NCBI GenBank assembly: GCA_003054695.1
Contig: QAZA01000039.1
Coordinates: forward strand, 310,001-374,000
Source of the DNA: Verrucomicrobia bacterium LW23
GTDB lineage: Bacteria; Verrucomicrobiota; Verrucomicrobiia; Methylacidiphilales; UBA1321
DNA: 64,000 nucleotides
Direction of reading: 5' to 3'
Positions 4,959 through 39,925 of this stretch are shown here, piece by piece. The translations under genes and the position numbers were made by a program. The notes below the pieces were generated by a model that ran no database searches, had not been told where the DNA came from, and saw only the letters and a list, made by a program, of their open reading frames with translations. The number at the start of each line of letters is the position of its first letter. Position 1 is the first letter of the stretch.

Positions 4959-5031
4959 GTTGCGCGTAGAATCCCTGATGCAGGGTACTTTAATTTAGCT
5001 ACCGAAATCACGTAGAAAGTGTCGTCACGAG

Positions 5032-5061
5032 TTGACTTTGGTTATTATTCGTTAGTATAAT
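5032..5061 (+). promoter_or_regulatory. Promoter of the IS427-type transposase
   Basis: TTGACT (5032-5037) and a perfect TATAAT (5056-5061) are separated by 18 bases. The transposase ATG at 5068 begins only six bases after the -10 box, so transcription would start at or next to the start codon, giving a leaderless mRNA. Confidence 0.65.
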
Positions 5062-5067
5062 GCAGGC

Positions 5068-5840
5068 ATGCCATTACCATCCCATCGCCGCCACGATATA
5101 TCCGACTCGATCTGGGCTTTACTGGAGCCTCGCCTCCCAGGGCGTAAAGGCGCGTGGGGAGGCCAGGCGCGCGATAATCGGTTGTTTATCAACGCAGTCT
5201 TCTGGATCCTGCGCACGGGTGCGCCATGGAGGGATCTCCCGCCGGATTATGGTGATTGGAAGAATACGCATCGACGCTTCTGCCGGTGGCGCGATAAAGG
5301 CATTTGGGAGGGGCTCCTCGAAGAGCTGATTCTCGAAGCCGGGCCTGATTTCGAGTGGCTGATGATCGATGCCAGTCACGTCAAGGTTCATCCTCACGCG
5401 GCAGGAGCGCGCGGCGGTAACCAGGCCATGGATGGCACAAAAGGGGGCTCAACACCAAAATACATCTGGCCGTGGATGCGCATGGTATGCCGGTCCGAGC
5501 TGTTGTTACAAAGGGTACCACGGCAGATTGCACTCAGGCTGAGCCCCTTATCGATGGCCTGACCGCCGAGGCGCTCATTGCCGACCGCGGCTACGACACC
5601 AACGCCATTCTGGACCAGGCCGCCCGCCAAGGAATGGCTGCCGTTATACCTCCCAAGAAAAATCGCAAAGAGCAGCGCTCTTATGATCGCTACCTCTACA
5701 AGCTTCGCCACCTCGTCGAAAACGCCATCCTTCACCTCAAACGCTGGCGCGCCATTGGCACACGCTATGCCAAAAATGAGGCTTCTTTCCTCGCCGCTGT
5801 GCACATCCGCAGCCTTTCCCTCTGGCTTTCTATCTCGTGA
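5068..5840 (+). CDS. IS5-family DDE transposase, two ORFs joined by -1 frameshift
   Basis: ORF A (5068-5562) encodes the N-terminal part (DSIWALLEPRLPGRKGAWGG, RTGAPWRDLP) with the first catalytic Asp in LMIDASHVKVH. ORF B continues in the -1 frame with VDAHGMPVRAVVTKG, the second Asp in IADRGYDTN and the Glu region (HLVENAILHLKRWR) to the stop at 5838-5840. The frames join at the A4G5 run 5439-5447, where ACA AAA GGG slips back one base and restores GLNTKIHLAVDAHG. Such slippage is normal for this IS group, so the element is probably functional. The product cuts and inserts its own IS DNA in the cytoplasm. Confidence 0.85.
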
Positions 5841-5881
5841 CGACACCATCTAGTACACGGAGGGTAACAGGAAGTATTTCT

Positions 5882-19514: not shown

Positions 19515-20840
19515 ATGGTATGTAACGGCAGCATCAAAAACTATAATTTCATGAGTATCAAGAATAAGGGCATCCCCGCGCCGCTGCCCCGCATCGCCCG
19601 CTTTGAGGAACTGGGCTACGGCATGTTTATCCACTGGGGCCTCTACTCTCAACTGGGATCGGGAGAGTGGGTGATGGTGCAGCGGGGTATACCTTCGGCT
19701 GAGTACAACCGGCTTCTGCAATCCTTTACCGCCGATGACTTTGACGCTCGGGCATGGGCGCGGCTGGCGAAGGCGGCGGGTATGCGGTACATCACCCTTA
19801 CGACGCGGCATCACGAGGGCTTCTCGCTGTACGATACGCACGGGCTCTCTTGCTTCGACGCGCCGCACTCGCCCGCAGGCAGGGATCTCGTGGCGGAGTT
19901 TGTCCAGGCTTGCAACGAGGAGGAAATCGTCCCCTTCTTTTACCACACCACCATTGACTGGCAGTGGTTTACAGACATGACGTGGCCTCCGGCACCGGAT
20001 GGCGGGCCGAACTTTGCCGAGTACCTGGATTATCTCCACGCCTCCGTAGAGGTGCTGTGCACGCAGTACGGCCCCATCGGCGGGCTGTGGTTTGACGGTA
20101 ACTGGGCGCACCCCGATGCGGACTGGCGGGAAGATCGCCTCTACGCGCTTATCCGCAGACATCAGCCCGAGGCGATGATCATCAACAACACCGGCCTCGA
20201 TTTCCGCGGCGCCAAAGGTCATCCCGAGATTGACAGCACCACCTTTGAGCAGGGACTGCCGACCATGCCGGACCGTCGCGGCTGGCCCAAATACCTGGCC
20301 GGGGAAATGTGCCAGACGATGAACGCGCACTGGGGCCTCGGCGACAAAGACCTGAACTACCTCTCGCCGGCGCAGATCATCGAGAACCTCTGCCTCTCCC
20401 GCAAAGCCGGTGCCAACTACCTCCTCAACGTCGGCCCCACGGCGCAGGGTGGTATTCCCGCGTACGAAGCAGCGGCACTGCGCCGCGTGGGCGATTGGGT
20501 GCGCATCTTCGGCGGCGCCATTTACACCGCAAAGCCGGTGCCGGAAATCCGCTGCGCCGGCCAGGACTTTGTGCTGAAGGCAGGATCGAAGCACTACTAC
20601 TTCGCGTTCAACCTCCCCATCAAGGGAAACGAGCACGTGACGGTAGGCGGCAGCAGCCGGCCCGGTTTGCGCGCTTTTAGCGGATTGAAGGCGGAGCTAC
20701 GCTCGGCCCGCTGGCTGGATGTGGAGGAAAAGCTGGCCTGGACGCAAGACGCCACGCGAGGCATCGCCGCGCTGGATTGCACACCATACCCGTACGGCAC
20801 GCAGCTCGTGGTTCGGGTAGCAGAGCTGGAGACGGTATGA
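19515..20840 (+). CDS. Alpha-L-fucosidase, GH29
   Basis: Up to 441 residues; ATG 19551 (MSIKNKGIPAPLPRIARF) is an equally good start and no RBS decides. GH29 landmarks: FEELGYGMFIHWGLYSQLG at the N-terminus, YITLTTRHHEGFSLYDT, and GGLWFDGNW with the nucleophile Asp. The enzyme releases terminal alpha-L-fucose with retention. There is no signal peptide, so it probably acts on oligosaccharides already imported. It is the first gene of a two-gene operon and overlaps the GH36 gene by ATGA. A candidate operator lies just upstream, so expression is probably under the LacI regulator at 24227 (inference). The C-terminal beta domain appears short compared with many GH29 enzymes. Confidence 0.93.
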   Translation: MVCNGSIKNYNFMSIKNKGIPAPLPRIARFEELGYGMFIHWGLYSQLGSGEWVMVQRGIPSAEYNRLLQSFTADDFDARAWARLAKAAGMRYITLTTRHHEGFSLYDTHGLSCFDAPHSPAGRDLVAEFVQACNEEEIVPFFYHTTIDWQWFTDMTWPPAPDGGPNFAEYLDYLHASVEVLCTQYGPIGGLWFDGNWAHPDADWREDRLYALIRRHQPEAMIINNTGLDFRGAKGHPEIDSTTFEQGLPTMPDRRGWPKYLAGEMCQTMNAHWGLGDKDLNYLSPAQIIENLCLSRKAGANYLLNVGPTAQGGIPAYEAAALRRVGDWVRIFGGAIYTAKPVPEIRCAGQDFVLKAGSKHYYFAFNLPIKGNEHVTVGGSSRPGLRAFSGLKAELRSARWLDVEEKLAWTQDATRGIAALDCTPYPYGTQLVVRVAELETV

Positions 20841-23056
20841 TTGAGTTATTGGCCGAGATTACGCTGGGCAGCCTCGTCGCCCGCTACGTCCAGCCCGCAG
20901 GCACAGCGCGCTGCGAGCTGCACCTGCTCCCCATCTCGATGGTGGACGAGACTGTTGCGCCGCGCCGCACCCTGGAGGATCGCCCGGAGATCCTGGGCCT
21001 GCCACAGAAGTTCAAGCCGATCGACGCCATTTCCCCCGGCAGCCTCGTGCATCTCAAGCTTCAGCAGGATGACACTGGCTATGGCTTCGCCTCGGGCGTC
21101 ACCATGGCGGAAAGCGCTACCATGTTTACGCTGGCCTACGAGGGCATACAGGTGAAGCGCCCCGCACCCACGCCGATCTCTCCCGCCGGCAAGGGCAGCG
21201 CCACGGTGGTAGAAACTACGCTGCGCGACACCGCCAGCCGCTTCCGCTGCATCCATCGCCTGCACTACACCCCGGGGGAGCCCGGAGTGCGCAGCAGCAC
21301 GGAGTTCGTCAACGAGAGCAAAGACGCCCTCTCGCTGGAGCTGCTGACATCGTTTGCGCTCAATGGGTTAACGCCCTTTGAGGCAGGCAGCGCCACACCG
21401 CACCTTACTTTCCATCGCTTCCGCTCATGGTGGAGCCTGGAGGGGCGGCAGGATTCCGCCGGCCTGGAAGTGCTGCACATGGAGCGCTCCTGGGGCGGTT
21501 TCGGACTCTTTAGCGAGCGCTTTGGGCAGGTGGGCACCATGCCGGTGCGTCGCTGGTTTCCCTTTGCGGCTGTGGAGGATACGACGCATGGAGTCGTCTG
21601 GGCCGCGCAGTTGGCCTGGGCGGGCTCCTGGCAAATGGAGCTGATGCGCAAAGGAGACCGCGTCACCCTGTGCGGCGGGCTGGCGGATCGCGAGTTCGGC
21701 CATTGGGTCAAACACATCCAGCCCGGAGAGTCGTTCCACACGCCGGAAGCGCTGCTGACGGTAGTGGCCGGCACACTGGACGATGCATGCCAGGCACTTA
21801 CCACCATGCAGCGAGGCGCGCTGGAAATCTCCGCACCTCCCGTGGAGGCCGGGCTGCCCATCTGCTTCAACGAGTGGTGCACCTCCTGGGGCAACCCGAC
21901 GCACGACAACGTCCTGGCCATCGCCAGGCGCCTGCAAGGCTGCGGCGTGCGCTACATCGTTATAGACGACGGTTGGGCCGTGCGTCCGCCGGATGCCCTG
22001 CTGCAAAGCAATGGCGACTGGATTGTCGATGAATCGAAATTTCCCGGCGGCCTCAAGCACACGTGCGATGCCTTGCGCAGCATGGGGTACATCCCCGGCA
22101 TCTGGTTTGAGTTTGAGGTGATCAACCCCGGCGCCACAGTGTGGAACGAGACCACCCACATGGTGCAGCGCGATGGACGACCTCTCCAGGTAGGCTCCCG
22201 CCGCTTCTGGGACTTTACCGACCCGTGGGTGCACAACTACCTCTTGGAGAAAGTGATACGCCTGCTGAAAGAGAACGGCATCGGCTACCTTAAAGTGGAT
22301 TACAACGACAACCTCGGCATCGGCTGCGACTGCGCCGACTCGCTGGGCGAGGGCCTGCGGCGGCACGTGGAGGGCGTGCAGCGCTTCTTCCACCTGCTGC
22401 GTCGGGAAATCCCGGACCTGGTCATCGAGAACTGCTCCTCGGGCGGCCATCGGCTGGAGCCCTCCATGCAGGCGCTCGCTTCCATGGGATCGTTCTCCGA
22501 CGCGCACGAGCCCATCATCATCCCCATCGTTGCGCGCAATCTCCAGCGCCTCATCCTACCGCAGCAATCGCTGATCTGGGCCGTGCTGCACCCCTCTGAC
22601 GACGAACCGCGCCTCATCTTCTCCCTCGCCGCCACCTTCCTGGGCCGCATGTGCCTCTCCGGCGAAATCCACGACCTGCACCCGTGGCAGCTGGACGCTC
22701 TGCGCCAGGCAACGGCCCTGTACACCAAAGCCGGGCCCATCGTCAGCCGCGGCACATCGCAGTTCTACGGCACGCCGGACAACAGCTACGTCGATCCTCT
22801 CGGCTGGCAGGCCATCGTCCGCACGTGGGAGAACAAGGCCCTTGTCGTCGCGCACAGCTTCAACCAGAAGAGTGAGTCGGCCGGTGACGATGACGGCAAG
22901 CTCACCACTCTCAGCATCCCGCTGCCTTTTTCAGATGCCAGGATTACGGATTCCCTGGCACCGCAATTCGCCTCCGCGTCCGTGCAGAAAGGGCAGTTCA
23001 CGTTCCGCCTGCCGCCCGGTTGCCAGGGCGGCGTCTGGCTTATGCAGACGGGCTAG
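20837..23056 (+). CDS. Alpha-galactosidase-like glycoside hydrolase, GH36
   Basis: A 739-residue enzyme starting at the ATG that overlaps the GH29 stop, so the two are translationally coupled. The N-terminal 340 residues form the beta-supersandwich. The barrel begins ICFNEWCTSWGNPT and continues YIVIDDGW, GIWFEFEVINPG, the nucleophile in GYLKVDYNDN, ENCSSGGHRLEPSM and the acid/base Asp in SFSDAHE. All catalytic residues are present. GH36 enzymes remove alpha-linked galactose (or transfer it) with retention. No signal peptide is seen, so it is cytoplasmic. Paired with a fucosidase, it suggests an oligosaccharide carrying fucose and galactose, such as a xyloglucan-type side chain. Its stop codon lies inside a repeated 33-bp sequence. 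Confidence 0.92.
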   Translation: MIELLAEITLGSLVARYVQPAGTARCELHLLPISMVDETVAPRRTLEDRPEILGLPQKFKPIDAISPGSLVHLKLQQDDTGYGFASGVTMAESATMFTLAYEGIQVKRPAPTPISPAGKGSATVVETTLRDTASRFRCIHRLHYTPGEPGVRSSTEFVNESKDALSLELLTSFALNGLTPFEAGSATPHLTFHRFRSWWSLEGRQDSAGLEVLHMERSWGGFGLFSERFGQVGTMPVRRWFPFAAVEDTTHGVVWAAQLAWAGSWQMELMRKGDRVTLCGGLADREFGHWVKHIQPGESFHTPEALLTVVAGTLDDACQALTTMQRGALEISAPPVEAGLPICFNEWCTSWGNPTHDNVLAIARRLQGCGVRYIVIDDGWAVRPPDALLQSNGDWIVDESKFPGGLKHTCDALRSMGYIPGIWFEFEVINPGATVWNETTHMVQRDGRPLQVGSRRFWDFTDPWVHNYLLEKVIRLLKENGIGYLKVDYNDNLGIGCDCADSLGEGLRRHVEGVQRFFHLLRREIPDLVIENCSSGGHRLEPSMQALASMGSFSDAHEPIIIPIVARNLQRLILPQQSLIWAVLHPSDDEPRLIFSLAATFLGRMCLSGEIHDLHPWQLDALRQATALYTKAGPIVSRGTSQFYGTPDNSYVDPLGWQAIVRTWENKALVVAHSFNQKSESAGDDDGKLTTLSIPLPFSDARITDSLAPQFASASVQKGQFTFRLPPGCQGGVWLMQTG

Positions 23057-23082
23057 CGTTGCAGCAAGGATCTATTTTGGGA
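23049..23082 (+). repeat. 33/34-bp repeat, copy 1
   Basis: Starts CGGGCTAG and contains GCAAGGATCTATTTTGGGA. It matches the complement of 23430-23463 at 30 of 34 positions; all four differences are transitions. It covers the stop codon of the GH36 gene. Confidence 0.8.
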
Positions 23083-23104
23083 AGGTTGAACATCGTGGAA
23101 GCAA

Positions 23105-23201
23105 CCCTCTTGGCGAAACTTTCTGCCCTTGGCGATGTTATCTGAAGGTCCGTAGATCCAAGGCAGATAGTATCGCCAAGGACGGAAAGTTTCGCCAAGG
23201 G
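23105..23201. repeat. Long imperfect inverted repeat
   Basis: The arm 23105-23143 pairs with 23165-23201 with only a few mismatches and a one-to-two base bulge; both arms carry TTGGCGAAACTTTC or its complement. In RNA it would fold as one long hairpin with a 21-base loop. Confidence 0.7.
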
Positions 23202-23226
23202 AATCCAGCGGAAATGTCGACTGCCT

Positions 23227-23259
23227 CTAGTGCATCGGCAAAGATCTATATTGGGATTA
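23227..23259 (+). repeat. 33-bp repeat, copy 2
   Basis: CTAGTGCATCGGCAAAGATC followed by TATATTGGGATTA; it matches the complement of the copy at 23430-23463 at about 28 of 33 positions and lies in the same orientation as copy 1. Confidence 0.65.
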
Positions 23260-23328
23260 GACGTGCATGGACCTCGGCGTCGAAAAGGGATGCGACCCGC
23301 GTTGGCGTCGTTCGATTTCGCGCCTTTA

Positions 23329-23392
23329 CCCAGGGTTCTTTCGCTTCGCTCGGGGAACCCTGGGCTAGCTTATACAACCTCGTTGAGGTTGT
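23329..23392. repeat. Paired hairpins resembling a RAYT/IS200-associated palindromic element
   Basis: CCCAGGGTTC (23329-23338) pairs with GAACCCTGGG (23355-23364); ten bases later ACAACCTC-GTT-GAGGTTGT (23374-23392) forms a second hairpin. I recall very similar paired hairpins with the linker GGGCTA as scattered palindromes in Verrucomicrobia and Planctomycetes; that link is from memory. Confidence 0.5.
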
Positions 23393-23429
23393 CAGAGCCT
23401 TGCGAACAGCTTTTCTTGAACCGCCATAA

Positions 23430-23463
23430 TCCTAAAATAGATCCTTGCCGCAGCACTAGCCCG
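23430..23463 (-). repeat. 33/34-bp repeat, copy 3 (inverted)
   Basis: The complement of copy 1. It covers the stop codon of the GH39 remnant at 23456-23458, so the two outer copies embrace the stops of two convergent genes. Confidence 0.8.
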
Positions 23464-23971
23464 GCTTACTCGCGACGCGAAGCCGGATCATTCGGTTGGG
23501 CTGCTGACGGGCTGTGATATCACCAGCTCCACGGCCCAGGCCGTAGCGCGCGACGCAGTGCTCGGTAAAGCGACGCACCAGCTCCTCCCACTTGTCCCAG
23601 TCCTTGGGCGGCAAGCCGTTGCCCTTCCACCAGAACACCGTGGCGCGGCGCCGTGCGAGGTCGCCGGGGCAGAACGCAAGCTCGACGAAAGGCTTCACGC
23701 CCATGTCGAGCATGCGGTCAAAGACGTCATCGACATACTGCCAGTTCCAGATTTCCACTCCCTTCTGGACGCGGTAGACAAACATGTCGTCGTGAAAGAT
23801 CCCGTGGAATCGCACGTAGCGGAAGCCGGCGTGCAGCCGGGCGCTTGCCAAATGCTCCAGCCAGCCGGCGCGCAAAGCTTCATTCGCACGGCCCGCGCCG
23901 ACGCAGAGGCTCCAGGTATGGCGCAGCGGAGTTCCGGGCGACTGCACGTTTGCAGAAAGGGTCGGTGTCAT
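23456..23971 (-). pseudogene. GH39 beta-xylosidase-like gene with large internal deletion
   Basis: The first about 140 residues are a convincing GH39 N-terminus: HTWSLCVGAGRANEALRAGW, YVRFHGIFHDDMFVYR, WQYVDDVFDRMLDMGVKPFV, VFWWKGNGLPPKDWDKW, stopping at HCVARYG, just before the WEVWNEPNL-type acid/base motif. Sequence then continues LGRGAGDITARQQP. In the +1 frame the same DNA reads AVELVISQPVSSPTE-stop, which looks like a natural GH39 C-terminus. So roughly 300 internal residues are missing and the join changed the frame. Both catalytic glutamates are absent, hence it is inactive. The family normally releases xylose. It is convergent with the GH29-GH36 operon. Confidence 0.8.
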
Positions 23972-39536: not shown

Positions 39537-39925
39537 AATCAAGATGAGCTTCGCGAAGCGCTGGGGCTGAGTTGTGCGCTGTCCACCCTGCACGACGTGC
39601 TCAAGGAGATGAAGCTGACCTTTAGAAGAAACGCTGCGCGCCGATGAGCAGACGCGACCCGATGTGAAAGCCAAACGCCGGCGCTGGTAGGCCAAACACC
39701 GCAACTGGCACCGCAGTCGCCTGGTCTTTGTCGACGAAGCCGGCGCGAAAACCAGCATGACGCGCCTGTACGGGCGCTCGCGTCGTGGCAAACGCTGCCA
39801 CGACACCACGCCGCACGGCCGCTGGTGCTCCACCAGCATGATCGCCTCCATGCGCAGCGACGGTTTCACCACCCAAACCGCCCTGTCTAGAGCCACCAAC
39901 ACGGAGATCTTCCGCACCTCTGTGC
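39537..39925 (+). mobile_element. Degenerate IS630-family transposase
   Basis: Pieces of one transposase appear in two frames: DELREALGLSCALSTLHDVL and KEMKLTF, then after a frameshift TLRADEQTRPDVKAKRRRW-stop, then HRSRLVFVDEAGAKTSMTRL and HDTTPHGRWCSTSMIASM. VFVDEAG carries the middle catalytic Asp of IS630. A frameshift, an internal stop and loss of the C-terminal catalytic Glu make it inactive. Ends of the element cannot be found. Confidence 0.8.

Follow-up and report, generated by a model that had tools for sequence, protein, structure and literature searches.

The window analysed here, a 64,000-bp stretch of a 6.6-Mb genome assembled in 56 contigs (C39:310001-374000), contains two convergent genes, GH36 and a remnant of GH39, whose stop codons both lie in copies of one short repeat, with a series of stacked hairpins between them. 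What is the sequence that separates these genes, and how did both stop codons come to lie within its repeats?

The stretch between GH36 and GH39 is a composite of two multicopy elements

Re-examination of the sequence upheld the initial annotation in its description of three repeat copies, which begin at 23049, 23227 and, in inverted orientation, 23430. The two outer copies (23049-23082 and inverted 23430-23463) differ at 4 of 34 positions, all by transitions as had been noted, and the middle copy, which starts with CTAG at 23227, is more diverged (23 of 30 positions identical). At up to 3 mismatches, the 15-mer GCAAGGATCTATTTT has 4 matches in the window, 3 of them within this stretch, against an expectation of 0.76; this excess indicates that the repeat is not due to chance. 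The long inverted repeat reported between the outer copies is equally real, with arms of 36 nt at 23109-23144 and 23164-23199 that are 89% complementary, and so are the two small hairpins at 23329-23364 and 23374-23392. Compared to shuffled controls, the predicted fold of the 415 bp was far more stable on both strands (z = -9.96 and -9.50). The 415-bp sequence was not unique, as 118 matching stretches were found in the genome, many of them counted on both strands because parts of the sequence are palindromic. These stretches resolve into two families, A, which corresponds to the part with the long hairpin, and B, and the insert is one composite of these two multicopy MITE families.

The insert proper measures 401 bp (23056-23456) and has CTAG on either side; the outermost 4 bp of the outer repeat copies (CGGG/CCCG) are host sequence that is palindromic by coincidence. 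Reading along the forward strand, it starts with a 24-bp stub of the family B left terminal repeat (23056-23079), followed by the right-hand part of a palindromic family A MITE (23080-23226), which is without its left arm and carries the long inverted repeat (23109-23199). At 23227-23230 lies a CTAG that A, at its right end, shares with B, at its left end. From there the alignment places an internally deleted family B fold-back MITE (23227-23456), which relative to full-length copies is without about 117 bp after about 23271-23273. Both small hairpins belong to the interior of family B, the first formed by CCCAGGG...CCCTGGG and the second by ACAACCTC...GAGGTTGT, and the right terminal repeat of B lies at 23430-23456 on the reverse strand.

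Families A and B have the properties of MITEs

Among the first 50 loci, we counted at least 32 distinct copies of the family A region 23080-23231. Across the genome the A terminal repeat, GAGGCTGTCGACATT, has 147 matches at up to 1 mismatch and the B terminal repeat, GTGNNNCGGCAARGATCT, has 48 at up to 3 mismatches, the weakest of which are probably chance matches; the reversed pattern gave 0 matches in both cases. Pairs of A-type ends span 152-307 bp in 26 of 28 cases, the other two being the IS copy at locus L057 (683 bp) and one pair of 473 bp. Family B pairs, the window composite apart, span 136-342 bp. The full length of B is about 342 bp, with the same 342-bp span in ten copies, and the shorter spans are 136 (four copies), 155, 209 and 313 bp; the repeated internal hairpins suggest that the shorter copies may be products of deletion. 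Elements of both families are thus short, without a transposase gene and repeated in the genome, as expected of MITEs. A third group of elements, at L060, L061, L063, L068 and L076, has the A terminal repeat, another hairpin and a span of about 154-156 bp.

Family A was confined to its own genome among the 60 genomes searched, its own included, and family B gave one weak partial hit of 81 bp in the 59 relatives. The B terminal 22-mer had 0 matches in the genome_contigs and viral_contigs collections, and full B had no match in plasmids, collections from which records of this or very near genomes may be absent.

Insertion appears to duplicate TA and to rebuild stop codons

To the outside of 78 distinct A-type ends, the three bases read CTA in 37 cases and TTA in 22. 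The pattern that defines these ends itself contains the adjoining G, with one mismatch allowed, and the constancy of that G (76 of 78) is therefore partly built in, so that the varying pyrimidine is the real evidence. The 4-mers on the two sides agreed in 6 of 28 pairs for A-type ends and in 12 of 19 for B, so that in many pairs a duplication cannot be read off directly; the usual differences at A-type pairs lay in the outer base of either side, a pyrimidine on the left and a purine on the right. Since A-type 4-mers are mostly unequal and disagree at their outer bases, we infer that TA is duplicated within YTAR and that the G belongs to the element. Insertion thus appears to take place in the TA of YTAR, with TA duplicated and G as the first base of the element. 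At B ends, 30 of 39 read CTA/G, where a TA target is indistinguishable from a CTAG target.

With a TA target and a G contributed by the element, insertion into the YTAR of a stop codon would yield TAG at both edges, and the stop codon that is hit would be kept. At the window insert, the outer repeat copies do cover the stop codons of GH36 (TAG at 23054-23056, forward strand) and of the GH39 remnant (TAG at 23456-23458, reverse strand), as the initial annotation stated; the stops are observed at the very edges of the element, and they would lie in the outer copies because TAG was rebuilt at each edge, TA coming from the target and G from the element. By the TA rule drawn from A-type ends, the presumed duplicated TA is found at 23054-23055, in the CTAG at 23053-23056, and at 23457-23458, in the CTAG at 23456-23459. 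The joined window flanks read ACGGG[CTAG]CCCGG. Both genes end in GGC TAG, GH36 when read from the left and the GH39 remnant from the right, so that a single CTAG of this reconstructed empty site would have carried the two stops in overlap. No empty site was seen in 11 other genomes of the family, whose best GH36 is 45% identical.

The GH36 gene (PF02065) extends to its stop at the insert. The GH39 remnant matches positions 8-144 of the 472 of PF01229 in a profile search, and most matching GH39 frames in relatives have 500-584 residues. Of the 171 residues of the remnant, the homologous part extends to residue 145 or 146, which leaves about 80 bp before the insert; the last 26 residues had no profile match and, compared by eye, did not resemble the 9 relatives, out of 11 loci, that yielded a frame. 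The earlier suggestion that the repeat had driven the GH39 deletion fared poorly, since the break is not at the edge of the element and gives no support to a deletion started there; recombination with an earlier copy may have been involved. Open reading frames predicted across the insert (e.g., 22842-23429 and 23230-23517) need not be genes.

We also counted how often element ends coincide with stop codons. The ends examined were 98 of A-type, which include the IS and the third MITE family, and 43 of B, compared with 147 and 48 pattern matches in the genome, and 14 nested ends (7 A and 7 B of the 141) were dropped. Of the 127 non-nested ends, 21 fall exactly on the stop of a called gene (11 of 91 A-type and 10 of 36 B), and 6 A-type and 2 B ends overlap a called gene, as judged with a home-made, window-trained gene caller that missed evident reading frames of the window such as 19515-20840. 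The background was 270,754 unmasked bp, drawn from the window plus a selection of the retrieved loci; of the non-coding-or-stop sites there, stops made up 8 among 45 for CTAG and 28 among 350 for YTAR. With the number of insertions taken as half the number of ends, B showed 10 stop ends for about 18 insertions (p = 0.004 against the CTAG background), or 9 of 18 when the two ends in the window were counted once (p = 0.013). The A-type elements showed 11 stop ends for about 45 insertions (p = 0.002 against YTAR; p = 0.30 against CTAG). A cruder test that required at least 100 open codons gave 7 A-type ends in frame versus 4 and 10 in the other frames, with no excess, and 8 B ends versus 4 and 4. 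Together, these counts make an enrichment of element ends at stop codons suggestive, short of proof.

A preference for palindromic targets was considered and rejected. The window target CGGGCTAGCCCG and a few others are palindromic, yet flanks pair no better than mispaired ones over the first 6 positions (1.36 versus 1.78 for A, 1.53 versus 1.58 for B; 28 A-type and 19 B pairs, the 19 including two nested readings of the window copy).

Our tentative reading, which we put forward as a possibility, is that a stop-codon-restoring design concentrates these elements at the YTAA/YTAG stops of one gene or of two convergent genes, where landing would be harmless and fold-back MITEs stack and composites would swap the ends of one transposase for those of another. 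The sources covered, in part, by a literature search contained no description of stop-codon restoration by MITEs.

The element is judged a tolerated passenger

Element ends face the 3' ends of genes more often than their 5' ends, with 26 B ends toward and 9 away (p = 0.002) and 51 versus 30 A-type ends (p = 0.007), relative to a baseline of 49% that comes from 35 gene pairs of the window; both ends of an insertion enter this count, although they depend on each other. Such a bias, and the very stable fold on both strands, could speak for a maintained bidirectional terminator or 3'-end stabiliser whose mobile origin is secondary, and a bidirectional terminator had indeed been proposed for this stretch. 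That proposal stays unproven: between 22900 and 23600 we found 0 terminator-like sites, that is, no GC-rich hairpin followed by a T run, where shuffled sequences lead to an expectation of 0.8. Among 28 copies of A, 0 of 41 hairpin pairs were changed on both sides, a comparison of little power with copies 98% alike. A selected RNA hairpin was likewise set aside for want of covariation, with the caveat that copies so similar permit no strong test, and Rfam returned three weak matches, to microRNA models, far below gathering scores. Harmless landing combined with purifying selection would produce the 3'-end bias just as readily, and the bias is compatible with tolerance and with a mild 3'-end role. 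We judge the element to be a tolerated passenger and a maintained terminator or stabiliser to be unlikely.

An IS5-family element is the probable driver of family A

A profile search of the genome gave 7 IS5-type DDE_Tnp_1 matches. At L057 the matching gene is enclosed by a perfect 19-bp A-type inverted repeat, CTAGAGGCTGTCGACATTC, with CTAG on both sides, and at L052 it adjoins an A-type end. NCBIfam identifies the L052 protein as an IS5 family transposase (NF033580, 3.1e-36, 125.2 bits with a cut-off of 110; also PF01609), and the L057 copy matches PF01609 at 3.2e-7. We saw 6 right and 6 left ends of the A-type IS, several of them where a contig stops, which is what near-identical copies would cause by breaking the assembly. 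Family A is thus observed to share its terminal repeat with an autonomous element of the same genome, and to judge from the sequence this IS5-family IS is probably its driver. It is established that an IS can mobilise MITEs in trans when their ends match its own (e.g., PMC3189936), and we infer that family A is transposed in trans by the IS5-family transposase. Related loci numbered 16 in named genomes, of which 5 were inspected (four from Caulobacterales and one from Bacteroidetes). A CTAG marks the end behind the gene in all 5, and 3 of them have an inverted partner; the TCGACATTC core of the A repeat is present in 4 and absent from L205.

No B-ended gene was found among the 7 DDE_Tnp_1 and 13 DDE_3 matches in the genome. 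IS630 elements are another user of TA/CTAG, and as drivers of B they are unsupported, since the 13 DDE_3 loci yielded two weak matches to the B repeat, with 6 mismatches each and surroundings that are not end-like. The window has a weak DDE_3 (IS630-type) match below cut-off at 39718-39918, perhaps the remnant of a transposase. It also holds another IS5-type element at 5013-5852, with terminal repeats TAGAAAGTGTCGTCACGAG / CTCGTGACGACACCATCTA and two overlapping frames, a very similar copy of which is found in L053. A further IS5-type element, at L055, has a perfect 14-bp inverted repeat, CTAGAACCTATCTC, and lies beside an apparently broken gene of another transposase, which may be IS1182-like and which occurs in L051 as well.

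A single transposase that moves A and B as variants of one family would explain why both have the same CTAG/YTAR flank and fold-back build, and why B directly adjoins an A-type end at 8 of its 44 distinct ends, window and L002 included. The terminal repeats of the two families nevertheless differ (GAGGCTGTCGACATT versus GTGNNNCGGCAARGATCT) and most A and B copies stand apart from each other, so we consider one common transposase improbable. Far less credible still is a spread as REP/REPIN-type elements by a RAYT tyrosine transposase. In its favour, A and B are palindromic, multicopy and situated near the ends of genes, Y1_Tnp matches number five in the genome, and repeats of this sort, as well as RAYTs with long terminal repeats on either side, have been described in other bacteria (PMC3733652). 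Against it, the units here have terminal inverted repeats, CTAG/TA flanks and a size of about 136-400 bp, a DDE transposase gene shares the A terminal repeat, and among the matches listed (100 of the 147 for A) there is no A or B copy within 5 kb of any Y1_Tnp match. The initial annotation is sustained in its proposal of nested non-autonomous mobile elements of the MITE type, and the 118 stretches dispose of a unique sequence, one of the outcomes that it named as refuting it. Its link to RAYT or IS200 is unsupported, family A sharing its terminal repeat with an IS5-family DDE element.

The composite probably transposed as one piece

From left to right, the window insert comprises the B stub, an A that lacks its left arm, CTAG, and a B from which about 117 bp are missing. 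The window copy (L001) and L002 (C45:816800) have the same B-stub/A junction and share one substitution that is found in 0 of 27 other copies, plus two rare ones; the same junction and the private substitution, both read directly, indicate that the composite probably moved as a unit at least once. This reading draws on the left half of L002, the right half of which is another structure and not full B. At L007 there is a ninth case of B abutting A, in which the A end is damaged, and given 45 non-coding-or-stop CTAG sites in 270 kb, such abutment looks to us like more than chance. Where B stands beside family A proper (L001, L002, L004, L006 and L011), it is always at the hairpin-side end of A. 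At L003 and L076 the neighbour of B is the third element group, not family A proper.

The account that we favour, and hold to be very probable as a whole, is reconstructed from the observed copies, junctions and terminal repeats. Family A would be moved by the IS5-family transposase that is still in the genome, and family B, with other terminal repeats, by a separate transposase with the same taste for CTAG. A copy of B would have inserted at the CTAG at the right end of an A element, and a deletion would have fused the B left terminal repeat to the A interior. The product, bounded by two B ends, would then have transposed at least once as a unit and landed in the TA of the one CTAG common to the stops of two convergent genes. 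There, the G at each end of the element would have rebuilt TAG on both sides, with neither protein changed.

Discussion

The A and B elements would be new members of the IS5-type MITEs, such as MITEPsy1. Among IS elements, the IS427 group of IS5, with a 2-bp duplication, two overlapping frames and a length of about 850 bp, has an IS5-family transposase in common with the A-type IS, here only partly read. With one exception in the rows available, the listed IS427-group elements have short terminal repeats and a 2-bp duplication (PMC3281130). MITEPsy1 of Pseudomonas syringae is likewise small and gene-less, with terminal repeats that tie it to an IS5-family element, ISPsy2; it inserts at CTAG or YTAA, was caught transposing, measures 100 bp, has six copies in that strain and has a reported duplication of 4 bp (PMC3189936). 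Compared to MITEPsy1, the copies described here are longer, nested and more numerous, and A-type ends point to TA.

Other systems show partial likeness. RUP of Streptococcus pneumoniae (107 bp) is a MITE with TA-containing targets and terminal repeats like those of a resident IS, and tends to lie within other mobile elements, but its IS belongs to the IS630 family (PMC2229807). In Haloquadratum many elements are nested in others and there are MITEs for which the genome has lost a working transposase, although it is an archaeon with other element families (PMC3119063). REP sequences are also palindromic and multicopy, and sometimes part of larger palindromes, but differ from A and B in size, terminal repeats, flanks and driver gene (PMC3733652).

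The insert is ordinary in kind and its anatomy is well resolved, and a puzzling repeat with stacked hairpins becomes a history that is legible base by base. Its main points are the stop-restoring insertion and the probably mobile composite, and it offers a testable case of how a mobile element may land on one stop codon, or on two overlapping ones, and leave the protein unchanged.
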